Assembly: GCA_003022945.1 (NCBI GenBank)
Contig: PXRZ01000015.1
Location: forward strand, 1-41,203
Direction: 5' to 3'
DNA length: 41,203 bases
Source: Halobacteriales archaeon QS_8_69_73
GTDB lineage: Archaea > Halobacteriota > Halobacteria > Halobacteriales > Haloarculaceae
Shown here: in pieces, positions 3,928 through 35,885 of the stretch
Position numbering within the stretch: the stretch's first letter is position 1
Layout: each line of letters begins with the position of its first letter
The notes under the pieces: model-generated
Seen by the model: the letters and a program-made list of their open reading frames with translations, nothing else
Databases searched by the model: none
Told to the model about the DNA's origin: nothing
Translations under genes and position numbers: made by a program

Positions 3928-4365
3928 ATGGAGATCGAGATGGTGCTGGCGCCGGTCGACGGCTCCGAGGAGGCGATGGAAGCCGTCGAATACGCCCTCG
4001 CGGTCGCCGACCGCTACCGCGCCGGCGTCCACGCGCTGTACGTGCTCGGCGAACACACCGCGACGGCGATCGAGGACGACGACGCCGCCGAGACGGTCGC
4101 CCGGCGGGGCGAGCAGGTGATGGCCGGCGTCAGGGCGCTGGCCGACGAACGGGACGTCCCCGTCGACCACTCCTCGGCGTACGGCTTCTCCCAGCGGCGG
4201 CTCGCACAGCACCCTGGAAGCGTCATCCTCGACGTCGCGGAGTCGCTGCGGGCGGACTTCGTCGTCGTGCCGCGGGAGCCGGTTACCGGCCACCCCGACG
4301 CCGTCATCGAAAAGGCTGCCGAGTACGTGCTGGCCCACGCCTCTCAGCCGGTGCTGTCGGTTTAG
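3928..4365 (+). CDS. Universal stress protein (UspA family, ATP signature missing)
   Basis: A 145-residue UspA domain beginning MEIEMVLAPVDGSEEAMEAVEYAL. The C-terminal region reads VVVPREPVTGHPDAVIEKAA and lacks the glycine-rich ATP-binding signature seen in the divergent neighbour, so it probably belongs to the non-ATP-binding class; it may pair with the neighbour as a heterodimer, which is inference. The ATG is preceded by a purine-rich GGAG-type stretch (ggggagaggagagaaac) at 3909-3925, a stronger ribosome-binding site than most genes here have. Its 3' end overlaps the acetyltransferase remnant on the other strand by 4 bases. Confidence 0.88.
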   Translation: MEIEMVLAPVDGSEEAMEAVEYALAVADRYRAGVHALYVLGEHTATAIEDDDAAETVARRGEQVMAGVRALADERDVPVDHSSAYGFSQRRLAQHPGSVILDVAESLRADFVVVPREPVTGHPDAVIEKAAEYVLAHASQPVLSV

Positions 4366-4822
4366 TCGGCCAGCCGGGCGGCCATCTCGAGTTCGAAGCT
4401 GTCCGTGTCGCTGGCCTCGAACCCTATCTTCCGGTACAGCGCGATGGCGGGGGCGTTCCACCGCTCGACGGTGAGCCAGATGCGCTCGACGCCCGCCTCC
4501 CGGCCGGCGCCGAGCAGCGCCCCTAACAGCCCCGTCCCGATGCCGGCCCGCTGATAGGCCCGCAGGACGAAGATCGCCAGCTCGAAGTCGCCGTGGCGGT
4601 CCGGCACCAGCACCGCGTGGCCGACGACCGCGCCGTCGTGGCGGGCGAGCACGCCGACACCGTCGTCGGTCAGCGATTCGAGGCCGTGTACATCTCCACG
4701 ACGGCCTCGAAGTCGTCGTCGCCGTACCGCCGGAGTTCGACCTCGCGGTCGGCGTCGTCGACGAACGACCGCGGCGGCGCCTCGTACGGTCCGGCGATCT
4801 CGGTCGGATAGTCGCGGCTCAT
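4362..4822 (-). pseudogene. GNAT-family acetyltransferase broken by an internal deletion and frameshift
   Basis: Two parts of one GNAT protein lie in different frames. The first runs from ATG 4822 (MSRDYPTEIAGPYEAPPRSF...RRYGDDDFEAVVEMYTA) to a stop at 4670-4672. The second, in another frame, contains ESLTDDGVGVLARHDGAVVG and the acetyl-CoA-binding segment RAYQRAGIGTGLLGALLGAG, ending at 4362. Intact haloarchaeal relatives, as I remember them, have about 25 more residues between these parts. The join therefore looks like a deletion of roughly 75-85 bp at about 4680-4687 that also shifts the frame. The second part could still be translated from GTG 4652, but would lack the N-terminal strands. 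The ATG overlaps the stop of the UspA gene at 4819 (ATGA), so it once formed an operon with it. Confidence 0.75.
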
Positions 4823-5187
4823 CGGACCAGCGTCACCGTCGTTCTGGCGTTCAACAGGACGAACTCGGCGATGGAGCCGAGCTCGACCTTGCCGAGCGGG
4901 CTTGTCTCGCCGCCGCCGAGGACGATCCGGTCGTACCCCTCCCGTTCGGCTAACTCGAGCAGCTGGCTGCCGGGGTGCCCCGAGAGGGTCCGCACCTCCG
5001 CGTCGAACGACACCGCCGAAAGCGCCGCCTCGACGCGGTCCCGTATCTCCTCGACGTCCGTCTCCGACTCCGGATTCTCGACGATGGCGACGGTGAGCGC
5101 GTCACCCGCCTCGACCGCCCGCTCGATCGTCTCCTCCAAGGCGCGAAACGAGTCCTCGCTGCCGCCGATACCCAACAGCAGGTCCAT
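4819..5187 (-). CDS. Short universal-stress-type protein
   Basis: 122 residues with a compact UspA-like fold: N terminus MDLLLGIGGSEDSFRALEET, middle TVAIVENPESETDVEEIRDR, and a C-terminal glycine-rich site IVLGGGETSPLGKVELGSIA. The site resembles the nucleotide loop of UspA proteins. The protein is shorter than the neighbouring 145-residue UspA proteins but is a recognisable haloarchaeal type, so I do not regard it as truncated. It is the first gene of a minus-strand pair: its stop overlaps the start of the broken acetyltransferase. It is the third Usp gene within 1.8 kb. The cluster suggests a stress-related locus, which is inference. Confidence 0.82.
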   Translation of the reverse strand: MDLLLGIGGSEDSFRALEETIERAVEAGDALTVAIVENPESETDVEEIRDRVEAALSAVSFDAEVRTLSGHPGSQLLELAEREGYDRIVLGGGETSPLGKVELGSIAEFVLLNARTTVTLVR

Positions 5188-5224
5188 ACCGTCGCAACGA
5201 CGGCGGCGCGCAAAAGCCCATGGA

Positions 5225-5400
5225 ACGGGCCTCGCGGCTCCGCCGCTCGCATATTCGGAGGCCTCCCTTCGGTCGGCTTCCCGCGGTTCGCCTGCCGTCG
5301 CCCGCTCGCACTCTCGTGGCCCTCCCTTCGGTCTCTACACGCGGCTCACGGCTCCCTGCGGTCGCCGTTCGCACCCCCGTAGCCCTCCCTTCGGTCGGGC
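5225..5400. repeat. GC-rich tandem repeat, period about 60 bases
   Basis: The block CCTCCCTTCGGTC recurs at about 5263, 5321 and 5384 (spacing 58 and 63), each preceded by a related c-gctcgca stretch. Between the second and third copies lies a more diverged version (ctccctgcggtcgccgttcgca). No gene fits here. The same words (ggcctccctt...cggtcgg) recur near 19.2-19.4 kb, so this belongs to a dispersed family. Confidence 0.6.
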
Positions 5401-5464
5401 CACACGTCCGCCGTCCGTCAGACACCGGCGATACGCTTTTCGAGACCGCCCCGCTATCTCGGGC

Positions 5465-6037
5465 ATGAATGAGGAGGCCGAGGGGACGGACGACAGCGGT
5501 GGACCGACGCCGGCGCCGCGGCGCCCCGACGAGGGCGACGAAGACGACGTCCCACCGGACGTCAGGGAGTACGCCCGCTTTTCGAAGATCGACGGCGCGA
5601 CGTACGACCGGGCCAACGAGTTCCTCCGGGAGCGGACGTACATCACGGCCCGCGGCGAGAACCTGCCCGAGCTGGTGCCGTTCATGACCGACACCTACAG
5701 CCCGCAGGCGGTCAACCAGGCGCGGGCGAGCTTCGACGAGAAGGTCCGACAGGCCGGCGCCACCTTTCTCTACGGCGCGATGTGTGACTTCCACACCGCC
5801 GAGGAGCTGGACGACCTGATGTACGAGATCACGGAGGTCGCGAAGTTCCTGCTGGAGGTCGAGGGCGTCGAGCTGGGCGTCGACGAGGAGCTGGAGACCG
5901 AAGAGCGCATCTCCAGCGTCATGCGGGAGGTCCGGGAGTCGTCGGCGGCGCTGCGACACGACCACGTCACCTGTCCGGAGTGCGGCCACGAGATCGAAAC
6001 CGACGGCAAGACCGGCGACGTCGCGGCCGACGACTGA
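5465..6037 (+). CDS. DUF5806-type haloarchaeal protein with an internal in-frame gap
   Basis: 190 residues: an acidic leader (about 1-35), a conserved core starting RFSKIDGATYDRANEFLRER, and an acidic C terminus containing a CxxC...H stretch (TCPECGHEI) near residue 173. The core matches my memory of the haloarchaeal DUF5806 family, which has no known reaction. In relatives I recall about 22 residues (starting EWAIARLCADF) between YITAR and GENLPEL. Here these join directly at residues 63/64 (base 5653/5654), so the gene appears to have lost about 66 bases while keeping frame. The rest (LVPFMTDTYSPQAVNQAR, FLYGAMCDFHTAEELDDL) is well conserved. Whether the protein still folds is unknown. Confidence 0.75.
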   Translation: MNEEAEGTDDSGGPTPAPRRPDEGDEDDVPPDVREYARFSKIDGATYDRANEFLRERTYITARGENLPELVPFMTDTYSPQAVNQARASFDEKVRQAGATFLYGAMCDFHTAEELDDLMYEITEVAKFLLEVEGVELGVDEELETEERISSVMREVRESSAALRHDHVTCPECGHEIETDGKTGDVAADD

Positions 6038-6072
6038 CGCCGCCGGTCGGGCGGACGCGAAACGGCCGGGGG

Positions 6073-6359
6073 TTATTCTAGCCGCCGAACGTAGGTGACG
6101 CCGGCCTCGTCGGCGGCCGTCAGCCGGAGGGTCCCGGCGTCACCGTCGTGGGGCTGGCGGTGCGCGTCGAGACGGTTGTGATCGGTGCGCTCCTCCCGAG
6201 GTTCGAGACGCTCGGGTGGTCCGGCACCGCGATGGCCAACCGGGGCACCGAGAACGCACGGCGATACACGGACACCGGCTCGAACCGACCGGAGGACGAC
6301 TCCCGGCAGGCGATGACCCGCGTCGGCTCGTTCGGCGCCGGGTTGACGCTCGCGTGCTG
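6073..6359 (-). other. Gene-free or decayed stretch downstream of dihydroorotase
   Basis: Nearly 290 bases without a gene I can name. The minus strand holds a peptide that looks natural (HDGDAGTLRLTAADEAGVTY, ending at a stop near 6073), but upstream of it the frame becomes arginine-rich and unconvincing. A 71-codon plus-strand frame (6148-6363, beginning MGLAVRVETVVIGALLPRFE) is the alternative. Both are best read as remnants of a lost gene. Confidence that nothing intact is here is moderate. Confidence 0.4.
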
Positions 6360-7667
6360 CTAATGACCGCCGTCCGCAGCTGAGGTGCGCACGTTCCGTC
6401 CCTGTGCGTCGGCGAACTCGCCGTCGCGGTACACGATCGTTCCGCGGACGGCCGTCAGGTCGGGAAACACCCCACGGCGGCCCTCGAACGGCGTCCACCC
6501 GCACCTGGAGTGGAGCTTCTCGCCGCGAATCGGCTCGGGGTCGGTCTCGTCGACCAGCACGAGGTCGGCGTCGCGGCCGGGCTCGATCCGGCCCTTCCAC
6601 GGGAGGTCGAACACCTCGGCGACGTCCGCGGCGGTGACGTCGCGGACCCGCTCGTAGCTCAACTCGCCCGTCCGGGCCGCCTCCAACAGCAGCGGCAGCG
6701 CCGTCTCGACGCCGGGGACGCCGCTGGGCGCCGCCGGCAGGGCCGCATCCTTCTCGGCGCGGGTGTGCGGTGCATGGTCCGTCGCGACGACGTCTATCGT
6801 CCCGTCGACGAGCCGCTCGAACAGCGTCGCCCGCCGCGACTCGCTCCGGAGCGGCGGGTTCATCCGGCCGTAGGTGCCCAGCTCCGCGAGGTTCGCCCGC
6901 GACAGGAAGAGGTGGTGCGGCGTCGCCTCGCAGGTCATCCCGGCGTCGGCGGCGGCGTCGGCGCCCTCCGGGGTCGAGGTGTGGGCGACGTGGACGTCGG
7001 CGTCGTGCCGACGGGCGACCTCGCCGGCGCGCTCGACGGCCGCGAGTTCGGCCTCGGCGGTCCGGTAGGCGCTCCAGGCGTCGGCGTCGGCCGCCCGGCC
7101 GGTCGGGCCGTCGCCGGCCGGCAGGGCGTCGTCGTCGAACAGGGTGGCGTCTTCGGCGTGGACCGTCACGGTGACGTCGGCCATCGCGGCGCGTTCGACG
7201 GCCGTCTCGAAGCGGTCGACGTCGATGCCCATCTCGCCGGTGGAGTCCGCGAGGAACACCTCGCCGAGCGCCGCCATCGGCCGCTCGAACAGCTCTTCGG
7301 GCGCCCACTCGGCGGTGACGCCGCCGTTGATTCCGTAGTCGACCAGCGAGGCCGCCGCGAGGTCGGCCTTCCGGTCGAAGCTCGCGCCGTCGACCGTCGG
7401 CGGGTCGGTGTTCGGCTGGTCCACGACCGTCGTCACGCCACCGGCGGCGGCGCTCCGGGAACCGGTCGCCCACGTCTCCTTGTGCGAGAAGCCCGGCTCG
7501 CGGAAATGGACATGGGCGTCGATCATTCCCGGCAGCAGCAGGCGTCCGTCGGCTTCGATCACCTCGCCGTCGGCGTCGAGGCCCTCGCCGACCGCGGCGA
7601 TCGTCTCGCCCTCGACGCGGACGTCCCGCACCCGACCGTCGGCCAGCCGCGCGTTCCGGAACAGCAT
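6360..7667 (-). CDS. pyrC: Dihydroorotase
   Basis: 435 residues, full length for the family. It catalyses the reversible ring closure of N-carbamoyl-aspartate to dihydroorotate, the third step of pyrimidine synthesis, in the cytoplasm with zinc. Metal ligands are visible: DAHVHFREPG (H52, H54), H170 in TVTVHAEDA, H229 in VHVAHTSTPEG, and the catalytic Asp 297 in VATDHAPHTRAEKD. DSTGEMGID (about 141) and GRMNPPLRS (about 267) are also typical of the allantoinase/dihydroorotase branch. Allantoinase is the main alternative, but the haloarchaeal PyrC pattern fits best. ATG 7667 is chosen because MLFRNARLADG is the standard N terminus; the longer frame to 7703 reads as non-coding. The lipoate-ligase-family gene lies 32 bases upstream on the same strand. 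Confidence 0.93.
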   Translation of the reverse strand: MLFRNARLADGRVRDVRVEGETIAAVGEGLDADGEVIEADGRLLLPGMIDAHVHFREPGFSHKETWATGSRSAAAGGVTTVVDQPNTDPPTVDGASFDRKADLAAASLVDYGINGGVTAEWAPEELFERPMAALGEVFLADSTGEMGIDVDRFETAVERAAMADVTVTVHAEDATLFDDDALPAGDGPTGRAADADAWSAYRTAEAELAAVERAGEVARRHDADVHVAHTSTPEGADAAADAGMTCEATPHHLFLSRANLAELGTYGRMNPPLRSESRRATLFERLVDGTIDVVATDHAPHTRAEKDAALPAAPSGVPGVETALPLLLEAARTGELSYERVRDVTAADVAEVFDLPWKGRIEPGRDADLVLVDETDPEPIRGEKLHSRCGWTPFEGRRGVFPDLTAVRGTIVYRDGEFADAQGRNVRTSAADGGH

Positions 7668-7699
7668 TGTCGCGTCTGCACGGCCCGACGCCGTAAGGC

Positions 7700-8401
7700 T
7701 CACGGAGCCGGCCGGAGGTCGGCGGCGGCGACGACCTCGGGGTCGCGGCCGTTGAGGAACGACCGTCGAATCGCCTCGATGACCGCCGCGGGGTCGGCCG
7801 GGCCGCCGGCGCCCGCGACGCTGCCGACGCTGTTAGGGTCGAAGGCGACGCCGAGGGCGTCGTACACCGGCTCGAGGACGGTCGCGACGGCCCGGGCCTC
7901 CGGCTCGGCGACGACGACACAGCCGCCGACGGAAGCGACCGTCCGGCGGACCCGCTGGGCGACGCCGGCGACCTTGCCGTCGCCCCGCAGGGAGTGCTCG
8001 CCGGGGCAGAACGACGCCGCCGGCTCGCCGTCTCGGATCGTCGCGCCGACGTCCGCCAGCGCCGCTCGAAGCAGGTCGGTGCCGCGCTCGTAGCGGCCCT
8101 GGATATCAGTGCGGGCGCCGTCGGTCGGGACGGCGTAGACGAACGCGACCGTCTCGCCGGTGTAGGCGACGGCCCGGCCGCCGACCCGCCGCTCGATGGG
8201 GTCGTAGCCGTGGTCGCGGGCGGCGCGTCTGGCCCGGGCGTAGCCGTCGGCGGCGGCGTCCCGGCGGCCGAAGGCGACCTGTCTGGGCGGCGTCCACGCC
8301 CGGATCGCCGGCCGGCCGGTTCGCTCGACGAGGTCGGCCATCTCGCGGGAAACCGCCCGGTCGCGGTCGACGTCCGTCAGCGACCCCCGGACCACGTGCA
8401 T
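7700..8401 (-). CDS. Lipoate/biotin protein ligase family protein
   Basis: 233 residues of the LplA/LipB/BirA-type catalytic fold. The key segment IERRVGGRAVAYTGETVAFV (about residues 68-88) corresponds to the RRxxGG ligand-binding loop. A Lys in the GDGKVAGVAQRV motif (about residue 148) matches the acyl-adenylate-binding lysine of lipoate ligases. By family it would attach lipoate or octanoate to carrier proteins such as 2-oxoacid dehydrogenase E2 or GcvH; the exact substrate is not readable. It appears to be the first gene of a minus-strand pair with pyrC (32-base gap). ATG 8401 lies close to the divergent start of the M23-like gene, leaving only 52 bases for both promoters. Confidence 0.8.
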   Translation of the reverse strand: MHVVRGSLTDVDRDRAVSREMADLVERTGRPAIRAWTPPRQVAFGRRDAAADGYARARRAARDHGYDPIERRVGGRAVAYTGETVAFVYAVPTDGARTDIQGRYERGTDLLRAALADVGATIRDGEPAASFCPGEHSLRGDGKVAGVAQRVRRTVASVGGCVVVAEPEARAVATVLEPVYDALGVAFDPNSVGSVAGAGGPADPAAVIEAIRRSFLNGRDPEVVAAADLRPAP

Positions 8402-8453
8402 GTCCGGACGTAGGCGCCGACGGTCATAAAACGCCGACGGACGAACCGGCCGC

Positions 8454-9311
8454 ATGGTCATGCTGTCGGGCGACGTCGTGGGTCGGTACGACCGTTTTTC
8501 GCTGTTCAACTCGCCGTACCCGGCCCACGACGCCGGCCGGGCGGTCGACCTCTACCCCGGCGACGGGGTCGAGGTGGCGGCGTCGCCGGTCGCCGGCGAG
8601 GTACGAGCGACGCGGACCGTCCGCTGCCCGCCGAAGCCGTACGCGGCCAACCACGACCACCTCGTCCTGATCGACTGCGGCGACGTCGTCGCGCGGGTGC
8701 TGCACGTCGACCCGTCGGTCGAGGCCGGCGACCGGGTGGCGGTCGGCGACCCGCTGGGCGAACTCATCCGGTCGGGCTTCTTCGGCCGGTGGGTCGACGA
8801 CCACATCCACCTGGGGTTCCGCGAGCCCGACCAGAACCTCCGGCGGGCGACGGGGTCGCTGCCGCTGGCGCTCGACGTCGACGTCGCGGGCGTCGACTGG
8901 GACGGCACCGGCGAGGCCGTCGAGACCGGGCCGACCCACGTCCGGCTCGACGCGCCGCGGCTCGACCGCGAACGGGGATTCGCGGCCGTCGGGGGCGACG
9001 ACGGGACGCCGCTGGACGGCGGGTTGGTCCACTACGCCGGTGGCGGCGCGCTGGCGCCGGCCGACGGGACGGTGTCGCTGCTCGGGACGCCGGTCGGACG
9101 GGTCGACGGCCGCCGCCTTGAGTGGGCGGACGTCGCGCTGTCGGTCGTCGACGACGCCGACCGGCGCCGCCGGGCGACGGGGCTGTCGCTGTTCGCCTCG
9201 CAGGTCCGGTTCGGAGCGAAGCTCGTGTTCCACGAGGGCCACGACCTCTCGGTCGGTGACAGTCTGACGGTGTCGGTAGAGCCGGCGGTCGACCCGGTCC
9301 GACTGGGGTGA
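8454..9311 (+). CDS. M23-peptidase-fold protein, cytoplasmic
   Basis: 285 residues. The N-terminal half resembles the lysostaphin-type M23 fold: H25 and D32 in HDAGRAVDLYPGDG, then H117 and H119 in DDHIHLGFREP, matching the His/Asp plus HxH zinc ligands of M23 proteins. The His-to-Asp spacing (7) differs from the usual 4. There is no signal peptide or membrane segment, unusual for cell-wall peptidases, and archaea lack murein, so the role is probably not peptidoglycan hydrolysis. The second half (about 155-285) contains ALAPADGTVSLLGTPVGRVD, which resembles a lipoyl-type beta-barrel. The start is ATG 8454 or ATG 8460. It is divergent from the lipoate-ligase-family gene. Confidence 0.65.
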   Translation: MVMLSGDVVGRYDRFSLFNSPYPAHDAGRAVDLYPGDGVEVAASPVAGEVRATRTVRCPPKPYAANHDHLVLIDCGDVVARVLHVDPSVEAGDRVAVGDPLGELIRSGFFGRWVDDHIHLGFREPDQNLRRATGSLPLALDVDVAGVDWDGTGEAVETGPTHVRLDAPRLDRERGFAAVGGDDGTPLDGGLVHYAGGGALAPADGTVSLLGTPVGRVDGRRLEWADVALSVVDDADRRRRATGLSLFASQVRFGAKLVFHEGHDLSVGDSLTVSVEPAVDPVRLG

Positions 9312-9341
9312 CGACCCGGCGCTCATGTCGGGCGCGGCGGG

Positions 9342-9797
9342 TCAGCCGTCGCCGTGGCGCTCCCGGTGTCGGTCCTTCAGCCGCTGATAGGTCTCGTCCT
9401 CGCGGACCGTCTCGAGGTGCTCCTTGAACACGAGGGCGGCCTCGCGCTTTTCCGGGTCGGCCCACTCCTCGGCCTCCCGCTCGCCGCCGTCGTCGTCGTA
9501 CTTCTTGCCGCCGGGGTACTTGGCGTAGCGCATCGCCCGCGTGTACCCCATCTGGAGGTACTTCCGGGCCATGTCCATGCCGACGAAGTCCTCGTCCTCG
9601 CGGTACCGGCGGAACCGGTCGTGGATCGCCGCGGCGGCCTCCTCGGCGGTCTCGCGGTCCGCGTATCCCCACAGCGGGAGCAGCTCCGACTTGTACGGCT
9701 CGACTTTGAACACGCCTCGCTCGCCGCGGCCGATGTCGTACTCCTCGGGGTGCTGCCGGAAGTCGATGTCGTACTCCGGGCCACCGTCGCTGCTCAC
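9342..9797 (-). CDS. DUF4385 family protein
   Basis: 151 residues matching DUF4385, a family of unknown function found in bacteria, archaea and phages. Characteristic stretches are GRGERGVFKVEPYKSELLP, FVGMDMARKYLQMGYTRAMR and YAKYPGGKKYDDDGG. It is cytoplasmic, highly charged and predicted largely helical. The start is GTG at 9797, with a TATA-like patch (tattgtat on the minus strand, about 9821-9828) roughly 28 bases upstream, consistent with a leaderless message. It converges with the M23-like gene. Confidence 0.85.
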   Translation of the reverse strand: MSSDGGPEYDIDFRQHPEEYDIGRGERGVFKVEPYKSELLPLWGYADRETAEEAAAAIHDRFRRYREDEDFVGMDMARKYLQMGYTRAMRYAKYPGGKKYDDDGGEREAEEWADPEKREAALVFKEHLETVREDETYQRLKDRHRERHGDG

Positions 9798-9885
9798 GTC
9801 CCCGGTGTGCGGACGACACGATACAATAGCTACGTTGCCGGAAGAGGATGCCGAAACCGGCGGTGAAATGGACGGCAGGCGGCCG

Positions 9886-10467
9886 TCAGGCGGCGACGTC
9901 AGTTGCGACGAGCCACGCGGCGATACCGAGCAGCGCGACCCCGGAGCCGACGCGGACCGGCCGGCTCCCGCCGCCGAACCGCCCCGACAGCGCCCCGACA
10001 GCGCCGAGGTAGACAGCCGTGACGAGGGCGTACAGCGCCCCGAGGACGACCGTCCCGGCGGCGGGCGCCGATTCCGGGGCGAACCCCGGGAGGAAGGCCA
10101 GGAAGAACGGCACCACCTGCGGATTGAGGACGTCGACGGCTAGCCCCTGGAGGTAGGGGCTGCCGTCGGGGGCGGGCCTCGGCGGCCGGCCGGCGGAGCC
10201 GGCTGACGCCGAGGAGAGGTAGACGGCACCGCCGAGGACGACGACGGTGCGGGCCGCCGGGACCGCCCGGAACAGCGCCGCCGGGCCGACCGCCGCGGCG
10301 ACGGTGTGGACGAGCACGCCCGAGGCGACCCCGAGCGTCGACCGGACGCCGGCACCGGGACCCTCGCCGGCCCCGCGGGCGAGGACGTACGCGGCGTCCG
10401 GCCCCGGCGAGAGGATGACGGCGACGGCGGCCGCAAGGTAGACCGCGAGCGTCGTGGCGTCGAACAC
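9886..10467 (-). CDS. LysE/RhtB-family exporter
   Basis: 193 residues, strongly hydrophobic, with the family hallmark near the N terminus ([20 protein letters not shown], about 16-35) and [20 protein letters not shown] (about 106-125). By family it is an inner-membrane exporter of amino acids or other small solutes, with about five or six membrane segments. It is slightly shorter than the usual 205-210 residues. The region after GGAVYL (about residue 82) seems compressed before the loop [16 protein letters not shown], so a small deletion is possible. The start is GTG 10467. Within its 3' half a small tandem duplication CCCCGACAGCG is visible near 9980-10002. Confidence 0.8.
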
Positions 10468-10533
10468 GCGAGCCCGTTTCCGAGGTCGAGTGAAGCCTCT
10501 GTCGGCCCCGAGCGTCCGGCGGTCGGTCGAGGG

Positions 10534-12534: not shown

Positions 12535-12651
12535 GGCCACACGACGGCCGCCGGCGTGGTATGTCTGTGCACTCCGGCGGCGCGGTCGCCGCCCGGGCGA
12601 CTCGAAACGACGAACGAAGCCTTTACCGGCTGGACCGTCTATCCCCGGCAA

Positions 12652-14037
12652 ATGGTACTCGACGATCTGGGTAGTTCCCTCCGGGGAACGCTCGACAAGC
12701 TACAGGGTAAGTCCCGGCTCAGCGAGGATGACGTCGACGAGGTCGTCAAAGAGATCCAGCGGTCGCTGCTGTCGGCCGACGTCGACGTCGACCTAGTGAT
12801 GGAGCTGTCGGATTCCATCCGCGAGCGGGCGCTGGCCGAGGAGCCGCCGGCCGGGACGACCGCCAAGGACCACGTCCTCAAGATCGTCTACGAGGAGATG
12901 GTCGACCTCGTCGGCGAGTCGACCGAGCTGCCGCTGGAGGGACAGACCATCGTGCTGGCGGGTCTGCAGGGGTCGGGCAAGACCACCTCCGCGGCGAAGA
13001 TGGCATGGTGGTTCTCGAAGAAGGGCCTGCGGCCGGCGGTCATCCAGACCGACACCTTCCGGCCGGGCGCCTACGACCAGGCCGAGGAGATGACCGAGCG
13101 GGCGGAGGTGGACTTCTACGGCGACCCCGACGCCGACGACCCCGTCGAGATCGCCCGCGAGGGGCTGGAGGCGACCGCCGACGCCGACGTCCGCATCGTC
13201 GACACCTCCGGACGGTCCGGGCTGAACGAGGAGCTGGTCGAGGAGCTGGAGCGCATCGAAGCGGCCGTCGAGCCGGACCGCAACCTGCTGGTGCTGGACG
13301 CCGCCATCGGCCAGAGCGCAAAGGAGCAGGCCGAAGCCTTCGGCGACGCGGTCGGCATCGACGGCGTCGTCATCACGAAGCTCGACGGGACGGCGAAGGG
13401 TGGTGGCGCCCTCGCCGCGGTCGATCAGACGGACTCCTCGATCGCCTTCCTCGGGACCGGCGAGGAGGTCAAGGACGTCGAGCGGTTCGAGGCCTCCGGA
13501 TTCATCTCCCGGCTACTCGGGATGGGCGACCTCAAGCAGCTCTCCGAGCGCGTCGAGCGTGCCATGGAGGAAACCCAGGAGGAAGAAGACTGGGACCCCG
13601 AGGACCTGATGCAGGGGGAGTTCACGCTGAAGGATATGCGCAACCAGATGAACGCGATGAACAGGATGGGGCCGCTCGATCAGGTGATGGACATGATTCC
13701 GGGGCTGGGCGGCGGCCTCAAGGACCAGCTGCCGGACGACGCGATGGACGTCACCCAGGACCGCCTGCGCAACTTCGAGGTCATCATGGACTCGATGACC
13801 GACGACGAACTGGAAAACCCCCGGTCGGTCGGCCAGAGCCAGATCGAACGCATCGCCCGCGGCTCCGGCACCGACGAGGAGACCGTCCGGGACCTACTGG
13901 AACAGCACAAGATGATGAGCCGGATGATGAAGCAGTTCCAGGGCATGGGCGACGGCGACATGCAGCGGATGATGCAGAAGATGCAGGGCGACGGCGGTGG
14001 CGGCGGCATGGGCGGGATGGGGCCGTTCGGCGACTGA
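12652..14037 (+). CDS. srp54: Signal recognition particle protein SRP54
   Basis: 461 residues, full-length SRP54. The helical N domain (1-90, starting [20 protein letters not shown]) is followed by the GTPase G domain, with P-loop GLQGSGKTT (about 104-112), DTSGRSG and [12 protein letters not shown] (about 245-256). The C-terminal methionine-rich M domain ([20 protein letters not shown] and later [13 protein letters not shown], about 325-455) binds the signal peptide and 7S RNA. It ends in a glycine/methionine tail. In the cytoplasm it binds ribosome-nascent-chain complexes and delivers them to FtsY at the membrane. ATG 12652 matches the conserved N terminus. It is divergent from the S9 peptidase. 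No SRP RNA or ftsY gene is visible in the window. Confidence 0.97.
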
Positions 14038-14070
14038 GCCGGGCGGCCGACTGGAAGGAGGCCGCCGGAT

Positions 14071-14114
14071 GAGCGAGCGGGAGGAACGACCAGGGGGAGT
14101 GACGACACGCGAGC
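14071..14114 (+). repeat. Copy A of a dispersed GC-rich repeat (after srp54)
   Basis: Starts GAGCGAGCGGGAGGAACGA and ends GTGACGACACGCGAGC. The same start and end words, with a variable middle, occur at 15104-15139 and 15176-15217, and in reverse orientation at 19315-19357 and 19401-19431. It sits 33 bases past the srp54 stop codon and could take part in transcript ending, which is inference. Confidence 0.65.
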
Positions 14115-14208
14115 CGGGCGGCGCGTCGTTCTGTCCATAGATTGTTCCCGATGAGTGCCTCCACTCAATGGAGCGGTGAATCGTCCATTAGGTGGAAGTG
14201 CAGATCGA

Positions 14209-14490
14209 TCAGTCGTCGTCACCGCGATACGCATCGCCACCACGTTTTCGAATCCGTAGGACATAGAGGATGTTCTCGGCTCGGTCAGTACGACATCCGA
14301 GTCGGAACGGCCCAATACGGAGTTTGTCGTTGGGCGCACCTTGCAGGGGTTCGAGATGGTCCGGTGGGTCTCGCCATTCGTCCGTGATGATCTCGTCGAG
14401 TTTGTCGACGATGCGGTCACGTGCGTGGTTATCGAGGCTGTCGAAGTCCCGTCGTGCGGTGTCGGTGAGTTCCCAGTCCCACTCACTCAT
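14209..14490 (-). CDS. RelE/ParE-family toxin
   Basis: 93 residues with the RelE-type fold pattern: WELTDTARRDFDSLDNHARD (N-terminal helices), HLEPLQGAPNDKLRIGPFRL (central strands) and ILYVLRIRKRGGDAYRG (C-terminal strand with basic residues). By family it cleaves mRNA on the ribosome or, for ParE-like members, inhibits gyrase. The basic residues K56, R58, R63 and the terminal RIRKR suit a ribosome-dependent RNase. Its ATG at 14490 overlaps the antitoxin 3' end by 8 bases, the usual antitoxin-first order. Base composition is visibly lower in GC than neighbouring genes, in keeping with recent transfer. Confidence 0.85.
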   Translation of the reverse strand: MSEWDWELTDTARRDFDSLDNHARDRIVDKLDEIITDEWRDPPDHLEPLQGAPNDKLRIGPFRLGCRTDRAENILYVLRIRKRGGDAYRGDDD

Positions 14491-14710
14491 CGCCGTCGCG
14501 TGCTGTGTCGTCGAGACCGTACTCCGCCTTCACGTCATCGCTAGTATGGGTGCGGTCCTCCCGAATCTCCGCTTCGCTGGTAAGCATCGCCTTCAGGTCG
14601 GCGCGGTTGAATTCGGGATGTTTGAGGGCATCTCGAAGCACAGCTCGGATGAATTCACTCCGACTGTTGAACCCCTGGTCTACATACGATGTGTTGAAGT
14701 TGTGTATCAA
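14483..14710 (-). CDS. Ribbon-helix-helix antitoxin, possibly N-terminally shortened
   Basis: 75 residues. The helix-turn-helix part of the ribbon-helix-helix fold is clear (GFNSRSEFIRAVLRDAL, residues 14-30), followed by an acidic tail (EAEIREDRTHTSDDVKAEYG) that would bind the toxin. The only in-frame start is TTG 14710, since a stop lies at 14717-14719, and the first 13 residues (MIHNFNTSYVDQG) do not look like the usual N-terminal beta-strand that contacts DNA. The gene may have lost its original 5' end or use a rare start. A TATA-like cgtttattg overlaps the start region on the minus strand. It is coupled to the RelE-type toxin. Confidence 0.7.
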   Translation of the reverse strand: MIHNFNTSYVDQGFNSRSEFIRAVLRDALKHPEFNRADLKAMLTSEAEIREDRTHTSDDVKAEYGLDDTARDGDE

Positions 14711-14764
14711 TAAACGTTACGTCAGCCGGTACCGCCTCTACTTGACCAATTTGGGATGGCAGAT

Positions 14765-14790
14765 CATGGGATGGAAAGTTTTCTCCCATG
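14765..14790. promoter_or_regulatory. Inverted repeat between toxin-antitoxin pair and reductase gene
   Basis: CATGGGA (14765-14771) is mirrored by TCCCATG (14784-14790), with inner GAAA/TTTC pairing around a GT centre and a 2-base bulge. It lies 54 bases upstream of the antitoxin start and 53 bases upstream of the plus-strand reductase ATG, whose TATA-like box (gatatttct) is at about 14811-14819. An operator for either gene is plausible. Confidence 0.4.
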
Positions 14791-14842
14791 CGCGGGAACC
14801 GCCAACGGAGGATATTTCTACGCCGCCGTACTCCGTCCCTGT

Positions 14843-15998
14843 ATGCACGATTTCGTCGTCGTGGGCGCGGGCCCGGCCGGCTCGCGGTTCGCCCGATCGG
14901 CGAGCGAGCGAGGACGCGACGTGCTCGTTCTGGAATCGGGCGAAATCGGCCGGCCGCTGGCCTGTTCGGGCCACGTCAGCCGCGACGTCTGGGAGTTCGT
15001 CCCTGACGACGCCCGCGACCGCCTCCTCCAAAACGAGGTGTACGGCGCGCGGTTCCACCTCGGCGGCGCCGATAGTGGGGACGACCGACGGGAGCCATCG
15101 GACGAGCGAGCGGGAGGAGCGGAGCGACGACACGCGAGCGACGAGGCGCGCCCGACGGAGAGCGACTCGGGGGCCGCGAGCGGGAGGAGCGAACGAAGGG
15201 AGCGACGACACGCGAGCCAGGACGGGTACGCCTTCTACAAGGACGAGCCGGTGTCGAACGTCATCGACCGGGTCGGCCTCGACGAGACCCTCGCCGACCG
15301 CGCCCACGAGGCCGACGCCGAGGTCCGCGACGGCCACACCGTCACCCGGGTCGATGAGGGCCCCGACGGCGTCGCGGTGACCGCCCGCGGGCCCGACGGC
15401 ACCGAGTCCTTCGAGGGCCGGATGGTCGTCGGCGCGGACGGCCCGCGGTCGAAGGTTCGCGACGAGGTGGGCCTGCCGGAACCCGACGAACTGCTGCACG
15501 GCGTGCTGGGGTTCGAGGGCGGCGCCGACGACGGGGACCGCGTCGACGTTCACCTCACCGTCCCGCGGTTCTTCGCCTGGCGCATCCCGCGCGGCGACGC
15601 CGGCGCCGAGTACGGGCTGGCGGTCGCGCCGGGCGACGACGCCCCGGGCCGGTTCGAGGCGCTACTGGACGACTACGGCGTCGACGTCGAGCGGCGCTGC
15701 TCGGGGGCCATCCCCATCGGCCCGCCGGACCGGACCGTCGGCCGCCGGAGCCTGCTGGTGGGCGACGCCGCCGCCCAGACCAAGCCGTTCACCGCTGGAC
15801 GACTACGAGCGGGCCTGGCGCGAGGAACTGCGGACCGACCAGCGGCTCGGCAGCCTCGTCCGGGCCGGCTACTCGATGCCCGAACCCGTCCAGCGGGCCG
15901 GGCTGCGGGCGTTCAGCGGCGAGATCGCCGTCCACATGGACCGGCCGACGTCGCTGTTCTCGCGAGCGCAGCTACGGGCGCTGCTGTCGTGGGGCTGA
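14843..15998 (+). pseudogene. Geranylgeranyl-reductase-family FAD protein with an internal deletion and a repeat insertion
   Basis: The 5' part is a flavoprotein of the geranylgeranyl reductase family: dinucleotide-binding MHDFVVVGAGPAGSRFARSA (1-20), LACSGHVSRDVWEF (~43), YAFYKDEPVSNVIDR (~130), PRFFAWRIPRGDAG, GAIPIGPPDR and the second FAD motif LLVGDAAAQTKPFT. By family it saturates isoprenoid chains of archaeal lipids. After QTKPFT (base ~15793) the frame breaks. The true C terminus continues in another frame (LDDYERAWREELRTDQRLGS to the stop at 15996-15998). The GG(G)-containing FAD loop and about 25 residues normally between are absent, so a deletion of roughly 75-85 bp shifted the frame. 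About 50 extra residues (76-127), rich in Arg, Glu and Ser, come from inserted repeat DNA. The frame as read stays open to 16042. Probably inactive. Confidence 0.8.
15104..15217 (+). repeat. Two repeat copies inside the reductase reading frame
   Basis: Copy B (15104-15139) and copy C (15176-15217) share the start word GAGCGGGAGGAGCG and the end word AGCGACGACACGCGAGC with the intergenic copy at 14071-14114. Together with flanking GC-rich filler they fill about 150 bases between the codons for ARFHLGG and YAFYKDEP, which adjoin closely in relatives as I recall them. The insertion keeps the reading frame open and adds a hydrophilic segment. Confidence 0.7.
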
Positions 15999-16067
15999 GC
16001 ACGATCGCGGCGCCGCGGATCGGCGCGGAGTCGCCGAACTGACGTGCGTCCGCGGCGTAGCCGGCTC

Positions 16068-16652
16068 ATGACCGACGAGATGGCCCCGGCGACGCCGACG
16101 GAGGGGCGGTTCCGCGTCCTACCGGGTCGGGACGACGACGAGTGGCTCTTCCTCGACGTCGAGACGATGGAGCCCACCTACGTCCCCCGGGCGTCGGTCC
16201 CGGCGCCGACACCGGCGGTGGGCAACTGCGTCGAGGCGACCATCTCGTGGGACGATGGGCCGGTCGTCGACGCCCTGACCGTCGAGACGGAGACAACCGT
16301 CGCCTTCGTCGAGACGACGGAGCCTATCTTCGAGGCCGCGAAGAACTGCTTCGAGCGGGCCCGGGCCGACGGCGAACCGATGAACTCACGGGTGACCTAC
16401 GACACCGACAACGAGCCCAACGGCGTCGTCTACACCTTCGCCGACCAGTCCGGTCGGCGGGACCTGCTCGCGGAGTTCCGCGACGGCGGCAAACCGCTGG
16501 AGCCGCTGATCGACCGCACGGCCCGGCCGGACGAGATCGACCCGCCGTTGTCGGTGTTCGTCATCGATCCCGAGGAACCGTTCGTCGTCGTCTACATCGT
16601 GCTGGACCCGGACGGCCTGCTAGACGAGACGGTTCGGGACACCTACCTGTAA
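16068..16652 (+). CDS. DUF6663-type haloarchaeal protein
   Basis: 194 residues, acidic and cytoplasmic, with no recognised catalytic motif. The pattern GRFRVLPGRDDDEWLFLDVE, TMEPTYV, MNSRVTYDTDNEPNGVVYTF and FADQSGRRDLLAEFRDGG matches, from memory, the haloarchaeal DUF6663 family. No function is assigned to the family. ATG 16068 is preferred to the frame start at 16044 because the preceding residues (MRPRRSRL) are atypical and the AGCCGGCTC upstream is ordinary leader. It lies 70 bases after the broken reductase on the same strand and converges with the 6-phosphogluconate dehydrogenase gene, leaving 23 bases between stops. Confidence 0.72.
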   Translation: MTDEMAPATPTEGRFRVLPGRDDDEWLFLDVETMEPTYVPRASVPAPTPAVGNCVEATISWDDGPVVDALTVETETTVAFVETTEPIFEAAKNCFERARADGEPMNSRVTYDTDNEPNGVVYTFADQSGRRDLLAEFRDGGKPLEPLIDRTARPDEIDPPLSVFVIDPEEPFVVVYIVLDPDGLLDETVRDTYL

Positions 16653-16675
16653 CCGAGCGCGGAGCGGATGGCCGA

Positions 16676-17581
16676 TTAATCGTCCCGCCGGCGGACCTCG
16701 TGACGGCCGAAGCCGTACCGGAGGCGGTTGGCGAGCCGGCGGGAGAACTTGCCCTCCTCGTCGACCCGCGAGTCGAACCGCTCGCCCAGCGCCTCGTAGA
16801 TGAGCGGCACCGACACCCCCTGGGCGAGTGCCTCCTGGACGGTCCAGGTGCCGGTCGACCCGCCGGCGACGTGGTCGGCGACCGTTTCGAGATCGTCGCC
16901 CTCCTCCCGGAACGCCTCCTCGCAGAGCTCCAGCAGCCACGACCGAATGACGGCGCCGTTGTTCCACGTCCGGGCGACCGACTCCATGTCGAGGTCGTAG
17001 CGGCCCTCGTAGAGGAGTTCGAACCCCTCGCCGTAGGCCTGCATCAGGGCGTACTCGACGCCGTTGTGGACCATTTTGACGTAGTGGCCGGCCCCCGACG
17101 GGCCCATGCGAGCGTGGCCGTCCGGGCCGGTGGCGACGGCGTCGAATATCGGCGTCATCGCCTCGTAGGCGGGGTCGGGGCCGCCGATCATCAGCGAGAA
17201 GCCGAGTTCGGCGCCGGCGGGGCCGCCGGAAGTGCCGCAGTCGAGGAACTGTGCGTCGACAGCCTCGGCGCGCTCGACGGACCGCTCGAAGCGAGAGTTG
17301 CCGGCGTCGACGACGACGTCGTCGCCGTCAAGGTGGGGGTCCAGTTCCTCGAGGGTGGCGTCGACGGCGTCGCCGGCCGGGACCATCAGCCAGATTCGCT
17401 TCCGGTCGGGCAGGCGGTCCGTGAGGTCGGCGACGGAGTCGGCCAGCGTCGCGCCGGCGTCGGCAGCGGCTTCGACGGCCGATTCGTCGAGGTCGAAGGC
17501 GACGACGTCGTGGTCGGCCGCGAGCACCCTGTCGACGACGATGCGGCCCATCCGACCGAGTCCGATGACGCCGAGTTGCAT
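16676..17581 (-). CDS. gnd: 6-phosphogluconate dehydrogenase (decarboxylating, short type)
   Basis: 301 residues, the length of the short GndA-type enzymes. It oxidises 6-phosphogluconate to ribulose 5-phosphate and CO2 with NAD(P), in the oxidative pentose phosphate route that haloarchaea use. Visible elements are the Rossmann motif GVIGLGRMG (residues 4-12), WLMVPAGDAV (~67), the substrate motif DCGTSGGPAGAELG (~117) and the catalytic lysine and asparagine in GHYVKMVHNGVEYALMQ (~168-184). ATG 17581 is the natural start. On the minus strand a TATA box (gtttataccg) sits at about 17630-17639, and a perfect inverted repeat lies just upstream (17640-17673), suggesting regulation at this promoter. 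It is divergent from the Tat-exported hydrolase. Confidence 0.92.
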   Translation of the reverse strand: MQLGVIGLGRMGRIVVDRVLAADHDVVAFDLDESAVEAAADAGATLADSVADLTDRLPDRKRIWLMVPAGDAVDATLEELDPHLDGDDVVVDAGNSRFERSVERAEAVDAQFLDCGTSGGPAGAELGFSLMIGGPDPAYEAMTPIFDAVATGPDGHARMGPSGAGHYVKMVHNGVEYALMQAYGEGFELLYEGRYDLDMESVARTWNNGAVIRSWLLELCEEAFREEGDDLETVADHVAGGSTGTWTVQEALAQGVSVPLIYEALGERFDSRVDEEGKFSRRLANRLRYGFGRHEVRRRDD

Positions 17582-17639
17582 ATTCCGGACCTCGACGGCC
17601 CGGCAGGTGAGGGTTGCGGTCGCGGTCCCCGGTATAAAC

Positions 17640-17673
17640 ACCCGGATAGAAGCGCCGATAACGCTATCCGGGT
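17640..17673. promoter_or_regulatory. Perfect 10-bp inverted repeat, candidate operator between gnd and a hydrolase
   Basis: ACCCGGATAG (17640-17649) and CTATCCGGGT (17664-17673) are exact reverse complements separated by 14 bases. The element lies directly upstream of the gnd TATA box and 26 bases before the ATG of the plus-strand hydrolase. Two half-sites 24 bases apart would bind a dimeric regulator on nearly the same DNA face. The palindrome does not match the TrmB pattern that I know. Confidence 0.6.
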
Positions 17674-17698
17674 AGTTGTGATTGTACCGAATCAAGGG

Positions 17699-19159
17699 AT
17701 GGGAGGCGAATACACCCGGCGAGCGCTCCTCCACCTCGCCGCGACGACAGGCATCGTTCCCGCCGCCTCCGGCGCCGGAGCGGCGGCTCCGGTCGACGGC
17801 GACCTGGGGACGGACGCCGACGAGGAGTACCTCGAGCGGGAGTTCCGGAACTTCGCGAAGACGATAGGGGCGCCGGCCGAGCAGACCTCCGATCCGGGGT
17901 TCATGCGCCGCTGGCAGGCCCGGAGCCGGAAGAACAGCCGGCGGTACGCCGAGCGCGTCGCGGCCGAACCCGGCTGGCGGAGCCACGCCAACCTCTGTGC
18001 GACGTGGAGCGAGCAGTGCACCGGCGACCCCGCCCTCTACCGTGACGTCGACGACCGGGGGTTCTACGGCGCCGTCGGCGAGCGCCGCCGGGTCGCCTTC
18101 TACGACCGGCAGGGTGCGCGGCTCTCCGGTCACCTGTGGACGCCGGTCGAGGCGAGCAGGAGGGATAGAGAAGGGCTGCCGGGGGTCGTCGTCACCGACG
18201 GCTCCGTGCAGGCGCCGGAGCCGCTGTACTGGTGGGCCGCCCAGTCGCTCGTCGCCGCCGGCTACGTGGTGCTGACGTACGACCCGCGGGGGCAGGGTCG
18301 CTCCGACAGCGTCACGCCGGACGGCGACCGCGGCGGCAACGCCGACGCCGACGTGTTCGTCTCCAACCAGGTCGACGCCGTCGACTTCCTCCGGTCGACG
18401 CCCGAGGAGCCGTACGCGCCGAACGCGGAGTACGACCGCGGCGACGGCGCGCCGGTCGACCCGTACAACCCGGCCGCCGGACTCTTCGACCGCTCGCGGG
18501 TCGGGATCGCCGGCCACTCGGCGGGCGCCGTCGGCGCCAGCATCGTCCAGGGGCTGGAGCCGTGGCCGACCGGCGGCGACAACCCCGTCGACGCCGTCGT
18601 CGCCTGGGACAACCTCGGCGACAGCGAGGCGCTCGCCGCCCGCCGGCCGGAGCGGGAGGCCGAGGACCTGGCGACGCTGCTGGAGACGGTCCCCGACGGC
18701 GGGGTCGAGCCGCGGGTCCCCGCGATGGGCCAGGCCGGCGACTACTTCCTGACGCCGCGGCCGCACGTCGAGCCGCCGGACCCGGACGCCAAGTCGGTCG
18801 GCTTCGAGCGGTGGCGTGCCGCCGACGTCGACGCTTACCAGCTGGTCGTCCGCGGCGGCACCCACTACGAGTGGTCACGGACGCCGACGTTTCCCGCCAC
18901 CTCCTGGGGGTTCGGCAACGCGCTGGCGGACTACTACACCGTCGCGTGGTTCGACCGCTGGCTCAAGCGACCGTCGGAGCCGGGGTACGACGACGCCGAC
19001 GCCCGGCTGCTGGCCGACGACGAGTGGAGCGACCACCTCAGCTTCCACTACTGCTCGCGACGGGCCTTCGAAGGGCGCGACGGCCGCGAGCACGCCTGCG
19101 ACGACGTCCGCAGCGCGAGCGAGACGGCGCCGCCGGAGCGGGCCCGGAGAGGGGAGTAG
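17699..19159 (+). CDS. Tat-exported alpha/beta-hydrolase
   Basis: 486 residues. The N terminus is a twin-arginine signal (YTRRALLHLAATTG with an Ala-rich cleavage region, about residues 5-35), so the folded protein is probably exported. The body has the alpha/beta-hydrolase order: VVLTYDPRGQGRS (~195-207), nucleophile Ser274 in GIAGHSAGAVGAS, a late Asp in the region VDAYQLVVRGG, and His in GGTHYEWSRTP (~388). Strands and helices resemble the dienelactone hydrolase or acetyl-xylan esterase group; the substrate is unknown. ATG 17699 precedes the Tat motif directly. It ends with a charged tail. Downstream lies a repeat cluster with a strong hairpin. The upstream inverted repeat at 17640-17673 may control it. 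Confidence 0.8.
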   Translation: MGGEYTRRALLHLAATTGIVPAASGAGAAAPVDGDLGTDADEEYLEREFRNFAKTIGAPAEQTSDPGFMRRWQARSRKNSRRYAERVAAEPGWRSHANLCATWSEQCTGDPALYRDVDDRGFYGAVGERRRVAFYDRQGARLSGHLWTPVEASRRDREGLPGVVVTDGSVQAPEPLYWWAAQSLVAAGYVVLTYDPRGQGRSDSVTPDGDRGGNADADVFVSNQVDAVDFLRSTPEEPYAPNAEYDRGDGAPVDPYNPAAGLFDRSRVGIAGHSAGAVGASIVQGLEPWPTGGDNPVDAVVAWDNLGDSEALAARRPEREAEDLATLLETVPDGGVEPRVPAMGQAGDYFLTPRPHVEPPDPDAKSVGFERWRAADVDAYQLVVRGGTHYEWSRTPTFPATSWGFGNALADYYTVAWFDRWLKRPSEPGYDDADARLLADDEWSDHLSFHYCSRRAFEGRDGREHACDDVRSASETAPPERARRGE

Positions 19160-19198
19160 CGTCTTTCGGCGGTGATGACGGCGTTTCCGAACCCCCTC

Positions 19199-19431
19199 TC
19201 CCGCTCGCTTCTTTACTAGGCCTCCCTCGCTTCGAGCGGTTGGCCTCGCCGTCTCCGAAAATTGGCGATTTCCGGAATGACGAACGACGGCTCGCGGAGC
19301 CGTCGTTCGAACCACGCTCCCGTGTCGTCGCCCCCCTACGTCGCTCCTCCCGCTCGCTTCTTTACGAGGCCTCCTTCGCTTCGATCGGTCGGCCTCGCCG
19401 CGCTCCCGTGTCGTCACTCCTCCCGCTTCGC
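19199..19431. repeat. Repeat cluster: 58-bp direct repeat plus two reversed copies of the dispersed repeat
   Basis: A 58-base unit starting TCCCGCTCGCTTCTTTAC and ending near GGCCTCGCCG occurs at 19199-19256 and again at 19348-19405, with about six differences. Interleaved are reversed copies of the dispersed repeat (CGCTCCCGTGTCGTC ... CTCCTCCCGCTCGC) at 19315-19357 and 19401-19431. The block separates the exported hydrolase from a decayed gene. Neither strand carries a convincing gene. Confidence 0.65.
19281..19309 (+). terminator. Perfect 13-bp hairpin downstream of the hydrolase gene
   Basis: CGAACGACGGCTC (19281-19293) and GAGCCGTCGTTCG (19297-19309) are exact reverse complements around a GCG loop. 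It lies 120 bases after the hydrolase stop within the repeat cluster. Archaeal termination usually relies on T-rich tracts, which are absent here, so the hairpin may act in RNA processing or stability or belong to a mobile repeat; terminator is a guess. Confidence 0.4.
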
Positions 19432-19433
19432 GT

Positions 19434-19889
19434 GCTGTTGATCGCCGTCGAGATCTATCTAGCGGCGAGCGTCCTTGGCGGCGTCGCGGCCGACCACGCC
19501 GGTGACTCGAAGGTCGACTCGAACGTCTCCGTGGCGATCAACGCCGGTGGCTACTTCAGGGTGCTCTGTAGGGGTCGCCGGCGGACACGACTGCGACGAG
19601 AGCGGTCGGCTCGACGCCGGCCCCGCGGGCTCGATTACCGCGGCTTCGACGACAGCCTCGCCGGCGGCTACTCGCGATTCGGCGACAGCATCGTCGTCAC
19701 CGTCGGCGACCGGCAGCACACCATCACTCTCACCTGCGAGTTCACCGATGAGTCGCCGGAGGAGTCTCCCGTCGGCCCGATGGTAACGGCGAGGACCCCG
19801 GAGGCGGTGAAGACGGCAGTAACGACGAGAGCGGCGACAAGGACGGCGAGGACCGCGAGAACCGCGAGAACCGCAGGAACGGACGCTGA
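19434..19889 (+). pseudogene. Decayed gene for a secreted haloarchaeal protein
   Basis: Coding-like pieces follow one another in different frames. LAASVLGGVAADHAGDSKVD then SNVSVAINAGGYFRVLC is in one frame. VAGGHDCDESGRLDAGPAGS is in a second. RGFDDSLAGGYSRFGDSIVV then TVGDRQHTITLTCEFTDESP is back in the first. Finally an Asp/Glu/Asn-rich tail (DGNGEDPGGGEDGSNDESGD...) is in a third, with a stop at 19887-19889. At least three frame changes are needed to join them. The pieces look like an exported surface protein with a low-complexity acidic tail, family not recognised. The 5' end is unclear because it runs into the repeat cluster. Confidence 0.6.
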
Positions 19890-19959
19890 ATCGACGCGAC
19901 ATTTCGGCGCCCGTAACCCCCGCAGGGTATAGGCCGCTGGGGACAGAAGGCATCGACGA

Positions 19960-20634
19960 ATGTCGGCCATCCAGACGCGGGCGCTGTCGAAGCGGTACGG
20001 CGACGTCGTCGCGCTCGATTCGCTGTCGCTGGCCGTCGGCGACGGCGAGTGCTACGGGTTCCTCGGGCCGAACGGCGCGGGCAAGTCGACGACGATCAAC
20101 ATCCTGACGGGTCAGCTGGTGCCCGACGACGGCGAGGCGCGGGTTGCCGGCGTCGACCCCGTCGAGACGCCGGTCGAGGCCCGCCGTCACGTCGGCATCC
20201 TGCCGGAAAGCGGCCGGCCGCCTTCCTTTCTGACCGTCCGGGAGTACTTCGAGTTCGCCGCGGCGACCCGCGAGTTCGACCCGGCGACGGCCGCCGACCG
20301 GGTCGAGGCGTGGGCCGAGCGGCTGGAGTTCGCCCACAAGCTCGACACCCTCTGTACGGACCTCTCGCAGGGCGACCTCGACCCCATCATGCAGGAGCGG
20401 GTCAAGGAGTTCTTCGAGACGTACCGGGCGGCCGGCAACACGCTGTTCCTGTCGACGCACTTCGTGGAGACGGCTGCCGAGGTGTGTACGCAGGTGGGCA
20501 TCATCAACCGGGGCCGGCTGCTGGAGGAGCTGCGGCCCCGCGGGATGGACGGCGACGCGCTATTGGACCGGTTCTTCGCCTCCGTCGACGAGGACGTCGC
20601 CGAAGCCACCCTCGCACGGTCGTCGACGGGATGA
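19960..20634 (+). CDS. ABC transporter ATPase lacking Walker B (internal in-frame deletion)
   Basis: 224 residues. Present are Walker A (GPNGAGKST, 36-44), a Q-loop region (ILPESGRPPSF, ~80), the first part of the signature (LSQG, 135-138), the D-loop-like LDPIMQERVKEFF (from 140) and the H-loop histidine 167 in LFLSTHFVE. Between LSQG and LDP the family normally has about 25 residues that hold the rest of the signature helix and the Walker B strand with its catalytic Glu. Here they are absent and LSQG joins D139 directly (base 20373/20374). The protein keeps frame, but ATP hydrolysis should be abolished. The rest is well conserved. The stop overlaps the permease ATG (ATGA), marking an operon. 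Confidence 0.85.
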   Translation: MSAIQTRALSKRYGDVVALDSLSLAVGDGECYGFLGPNGAGKSTTINILTGQLVPDDGEARVAGVDPVETPVEARRHVGILPESGRPPSFLTVREYFEFAAATREFDPATAADRVEAWAERLEFAHKLDTLCTDLSQGDLDPIMQERVKEFFETYRAAGNTLFLSTHFVETAAEVCTQVGIINRGRLLEELRPRGMDGDALLDRFFASVDEDVAEATLARSSTG

Positions 20635-35816: not shown

Positions 35817-35885
35817 CGACGCAAGCACGGCCGCAGGCCGCGCGCAGCGAGGCACAGCCCGCGAGCGGGAGGGGGCGTTCGGAAA

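Follow-up and report, generated by a model that had tools for sequence, protein, structure and literature searches.

Four conserved genes in the window, by which we mean the whole 41,203-nt stretch that was analyzed (contig PXRZ01000015.1 of the Halobacteriales archaeon QS_8_69_73 draft, GCA_003022945.1), each lack one internal block, and our comparisons indicate that these losses are not a biological feature but almost certainly an ordinary fault of assembly or of another processing step. Judging from the sequence comparisons, the losses are probably scaffold joins made over small gaps whose length was under-estimated, with no Ns written. The draft to which the window belongs as contig C15, referred to here as G000, comes from a haloarchaeon, totals 2,633,186 bases over 79 contigs and is 76.3% complete. 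The closest relatives found were the drafts G010 and G018, and G005 (3.8-4.0 Mb, 2 contigs); G010 is ~95% identical to the window over the aligned part.

Alignment to contig 18 of G010 reveals that the four interrupted genes, encoding a GNAT acetyltransferase, a DUF5806 protein, a member of the geranylgeranyl-reductase family and an ABC transporter ATPase, are without 64, 66, 74 and 75 bp, respectively, at the very places where the initial annotation had noticed one internal block missing from each. That annotation was also right that the blocks are of similar size, but its range of 22-28 codons was not borne out, the measured blocks being slightly smaller and tighter (21-25 codons). In the GNAT gene (4365..4820, minus strand), the 64 bp are absent at join 4682/4683 and the frame is lost; the Acetyltransf_1 match begins at profile position 32 in the window piece versus 19 in G010. 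The DUF5806 gene (5465..6037, plus strand) keeps its frame, since it lacks exactly 22 codons (66 bp) at join 5652-5654, and its profile match falls into two stretches, whereas in G010 a single stretch reaches position 146 of 148. The frame is again lost in the geranylgeranyl-reductase-family gene (NCBIfam TIGR02032; 14843..16042, plus strand), where 74 bp are absent at join 15792-15794, and kept in the ABC transporter ATPase gene (19960..20634, plus strand), which is short of 75 bp (25 codons) at join 20374-20375 and in which the ABC_tran match ends at profile position 113 of 137, versus 136 of 137 in G010. The ATPase loss begins directly past the LSQG motif and removes the segment that includes the Walker B aspartate region. 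Two losses in frame and two out of frame is also what had first been seen. The four junctions, taken in this order, show 0, 2, 2 and 1 bp of microhomology against G010, and their 40-bp flanks are 97-100% identical to it. The earlier remark that the joins bear no scars of random decay was right.

The same blocks are fully present elsewhere. All their bases align in both G018 and G005 (64/64, 66/66, 74/74 and 75/75). For DUF5806 we looked at the best 80 of 282 relatives, all in named genomes, and each of these 80 loci keeps the block, with at least 20 of its 22 residues aligned. These results led us to reject an insertion in the relative as the source of the difference. Alignment to the closest relatives, a check proposed at the outset, thus defined the lost segments and established that G010, G018 and G005 do not naturally lack the blocks. 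A small mobile element, either excised here or inserted in the relatives, might be suggested by the similar size of the missing blocks, but what is missing are parts of conserved protein families, found in all three genomes and, for DUF5806, in every one of those best 80 loci, and we regard such an element as vanishingly improbable. DUF5806 itself is a strongly conserved haloarchaeal family, with no function assigned to it, of which we confirmed 282 relatives in our genome collection; the relatives that follow the closest drafts in the search include Natronomonas strains. One scaffold in this set, PXTT01000034.1, is titled "Bacteroidetes bacterium QS_9_68_14" although its DUF5806 gene, 69% identical to the query, is haloarchaeal; this points to a mis-binning of the scaffold in that draft genome.

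Outside the four genes, three further gaps of this kind occur in the window, at 14046, 14681 and 35885, none of them assigned to a strand. At 14046..14047, 77 bp are absent relative to G010, and this intergenic gap is possibly natural because it is located in repeated sequence. At 14681..14682, 85 bp are absent, and at 35885..35886, 97 bp are absent between genes, immediately before an ATG. A G+C-rich repeat ("gcgagcgggaggag...acacgcgagc") occupies ~14046-14125, 15073-15220 and 19196-19400 of the window, and is found again within and between many contigs of both G000 and G010; the reading frame of the reductase includes one such stretch, at ~15073-15220. The window also contains a 100-bp block (14505-14604) that is cleanly missing from G010, with 1 bp of microhomology. 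It is one of eight such gaps in G010, so the fault may also affect that draft, though less often.

The losses extend well beyond the window. We aligned five G000 contigs (C15, C72, C44, C32 and C1), 431.5 kb in total, to the corresponding G010 sequences. The alignments span 306,503 bases, and unaligned parts were excluded from the counts (C72, for example, is aligned over 48,647 of its 132,607 bases). The class counted comprised gaps of 40-260 bp with both 40-bp flanks at least 80% identical and microhomology of at most 3 bp; gaps with a less than 80% identical flank on either side were dropped before counting, and those outside this length range or with at least 4 bp of microhomology formed separate classes. 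By this definition, G000 has 55 clean gaps (52-155 bp) versus only 8 (45-149 bp) in G010 (two-sided binomial p ~1e-9), which, together with the presence of the four blocks in G010, G018 and G005, marks the losses as specific to this assembly. The 55 gaps have a density of one per 5.6 kb, a median length of 80 bp and a mode of 75 (6 cases), and they occur in all five contigs, with 7 to 15 in each. Because the same loss class recurs throughout the sampled part of the genome, the initial proposal of a common cause is supported.

By contrast, other classes of gaps are nearly even between the two drafts. Gaps of 1-19 bp, summed and counted with no flank filter, number 352 in G000 versus 369 in G010, single-base gaps 66 versus 73 (again with no flank filter), and repeat-mediated gaps of 20-260 bp, with at least 4 bp of microhomology, 12 versus 9. 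There are few gaps of 20-39 bp (4 versus 1), and those above 260 bp go in the opposite direction (2 versus 8). We are therefore dealing with one narrow class of loss on an otherwise good base sequence, and an error-prone base sequence was rejected as an explanation because of the balanced 1-19 bp gaps. Not all of the 55 gaps are necessarily artefacts: a few may be natural, since G010 has eight such gaps and since 5 of the 55 lost segments partially match sequence elsewhere in the examined part of G000, three of them in repeated stretches.

Good base sequence, intact flanks and clean junctions are also what would be expected of real deletions in the organism, produced by slippage during replication, by end joining or by some other mutational process, but the identity of the genes that were hit is at odds with this. 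Genes at the joins were named by matching the G010 proteins to Pfam and NCBIfam, the Pfam scan including 30 proteins that cover 32 of the 34 confidently coding events lying each within a single locus, with events 23 and 24 left out. Among these genes are several universal ones. On C72, the ribosomal protein gene uL11 (~46182) lacks 107 bp and is frameshifted, uL1 (~47154) lacks 102 bp in frame, and the cysteinyl-tRNA synthetase (CysRS) gene (~52402) lacks 91 bp and is frameshifted. On C44, uL16 (~58452-58775) lacks 128 bp, and its reading frame switches at the join (~58754). The Trm5 gene is frameshifted by two absences, of 62 and 95 bp. Segments are also absent from the genes for aconitase (118 bp), a LeuA-family synthase (155 bp), LeuC (111 bp, in frame) and UvrA (100 bp). 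uL16, uL11, CysRS and Trm5 are essential. When the G000 contigs were searched for the uL16 family, a single place was found; it is the broken gene, and its match to the profile does not start until position 38. Rpb2, which was sought in G000 as a test gene, was not found, the genome being incomplete. While second copies in the missing part of G000 are conceivable gene by gene, they are not credible for several universal single-copy genes together. With several universal genes frameshifted and the only uL16 gene found being a broken one, we conclude that the losses, which would be lethal if real, arose during the making of the sequence.

Reading frame and junctions point the same way. The coding frame, assigned by base composition, was confident for 35 of the 55 events, 34 of these lying each within a single locus; the composition rule gave a low-scoring frame for the GNAT event, which was therefore examined separately. 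Only 10 of the 35 confident coding cases keep the frame, no more than one third, and the lengths of all 55 gaps are distributed 14/26/15 over the remainders modulo 3 (14 of 55 frame-keeping). Microhomology of 0, 1, 2 and 3 bp is found in 58, 22, 18 and 2% of the 55 gaps, which were selected at no more than 3 bp, versus 51, 27, 13 and 5% at random. Real deletions, which must contend with frameshifted essential genes, no excess of frame-keeping losses and microhomology at the random level, are thus very improbable, and the deletion-prone replication or recombination process put forward initially fails on the same junctions and frameshifts. We can also imagine that the joins are real in the DNA that was sampled, stemming from haloarchaea that had died or were decaying, for example a population preserved in salt, in which pieces would have been rejoined end to end. 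Each join would then have cost ~50-150 bp, with neither microhomology nor selection on frame involved, but we hold this to be extremely improbable.

The lost sequence itself is unremarkable. In the survey of G000 gaps we found no end motif at the breakpoints of the lost segments, shared end motifs having been among the features to be looked for, and no excess of mutual similarity between the segments (12 pairs, versus 4-20 in 20 random sets). Both results stand against a small mobile element, and excision of such an element, the second cause proposed initially, is equally ill-suited to the frameshifts in essential genes. The G+C content of the lost segments does not differ from random (0.692 versus 0.699), and their mean folding energy per base (-0.393) lies within the range of ten random sets (-0.376 to -0.421). 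Dropout caused by G+C content or folding was rejected because the lost segments match random sequence on both counts. Within 60 bases of the joins, identity is slightly higher than in the control (0.97-0.98 on the left and ~0.96 on the right, versus 0.94-0.96). Of the three causes first proposed, it is therefore the systematic assembly or amplification fault that survives, as an assembly fault.

The runs of N in the draft bear on how this fault might have arisen. In 531,501 examined bases of G000 there are five such runs, which makes it most likely that the draft was scaffolded; since some Ns remain, we rejected a stripping of every N from the assembly. The run of 19 N at C44:39982-40000 stands for an interval of 160 in G010, that of 59 N at C32:12017-12075 for 300, that of 159 N at C61:24898-25056 for 411 and that of 86 N at C70:21025-21110 for 171, while the 116 N at C44:41970-42085 could be matched to G010 on one flank only. 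In all four measurable cases the run of N is shorter than the G010 interval, by 85-252 bases, in agreement with an under-estimation of gaps, on only these four runs; mere masking of sequence would be expected to preserve its length. Moreover, the largest silent loss is 155 bp, while no measured N gap spans less than 160 bp.

In the scaffold-join account that we favor, shorter contigs would have been ordered through linking information over true gaps of ~50-155 bp. A bias in the estimate would have made these gaps appear too short, and wherever the estimate came out at zero or below, the scaffolding step would have abutted the two contigs without Ns. The sequence of the gap would thereby be silently removed about once per 5-6 kb, within and between genes alike, and gaps below ~50 bp would be rare because reads had closed them. 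Two observations count against it. The five N runs in 531.5 kb are rare beside 55 silent joins in 306.5 kb of aligned sequence, so that nearly every gap estimate would need to be at or below zero, and some of the pieces between joins are very short (155 and 194 bp). Few N runs and such short pieces would also suit another processing fault, either a post-assembly trimming of stretches with low coverage or no support, or an operation on the assembly graph in which a short path is left out and the paths beside it are connected (the short pieces suiting the latter), and this would produce the same pattern, blind to sequence and frame. By itself, however, such a fault leaves unexplained both the N runs shorter than the intervals in relatives and the split at ~155/160 bp, and we consider it unlikely.

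Faults related to the scaffold joins proposed here have been described. Chen et al. 2020 (Genome Research, PMC7111523), in the part concerned with such errors, report that metagenome-assembled genomes contain errors of local assembly and at scaffold gaps, and caution that databases thereby acquire protein-coding genes that are incomplete or incorrect. As in that work, scaffold joins in a draft genome would here damage protein-coding genes. However, the cases in that part of the article are open N gaps, unsupported consensus and Ns placed despite overlapping flanks, whereas in G000 flanks that do not overlap appear to have been fused without Ns, with loss of the intervening sequence. ALLPATHS-LG, according to the relevant portion of PMC5368935, gives negative gap sizes for overlapping neighbor contigs in its scaffold tables, and so offers a parallel for a scaffolding step able to assign a contig link a gap size below zero. 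Its negative sizes stand for overlaps, as set out there, in contrast to the G000 flanks, which do not overlap (0-3 bp are shared by chance) and have 52-155 bp between them in the relative.

Extrapolated from 55 losses in 306.5 kb, the 2.63-Mb G000 draft would carry some 470 silent losses without Ns. For this genome, gene lengths, estimates of completeness and the calling of frameshifts or pseudogenes are therefore unreliable, and part of its 76% completeness may itself be due to this damage. The silent losses have no biological importance for the organism; their value is as a warning.
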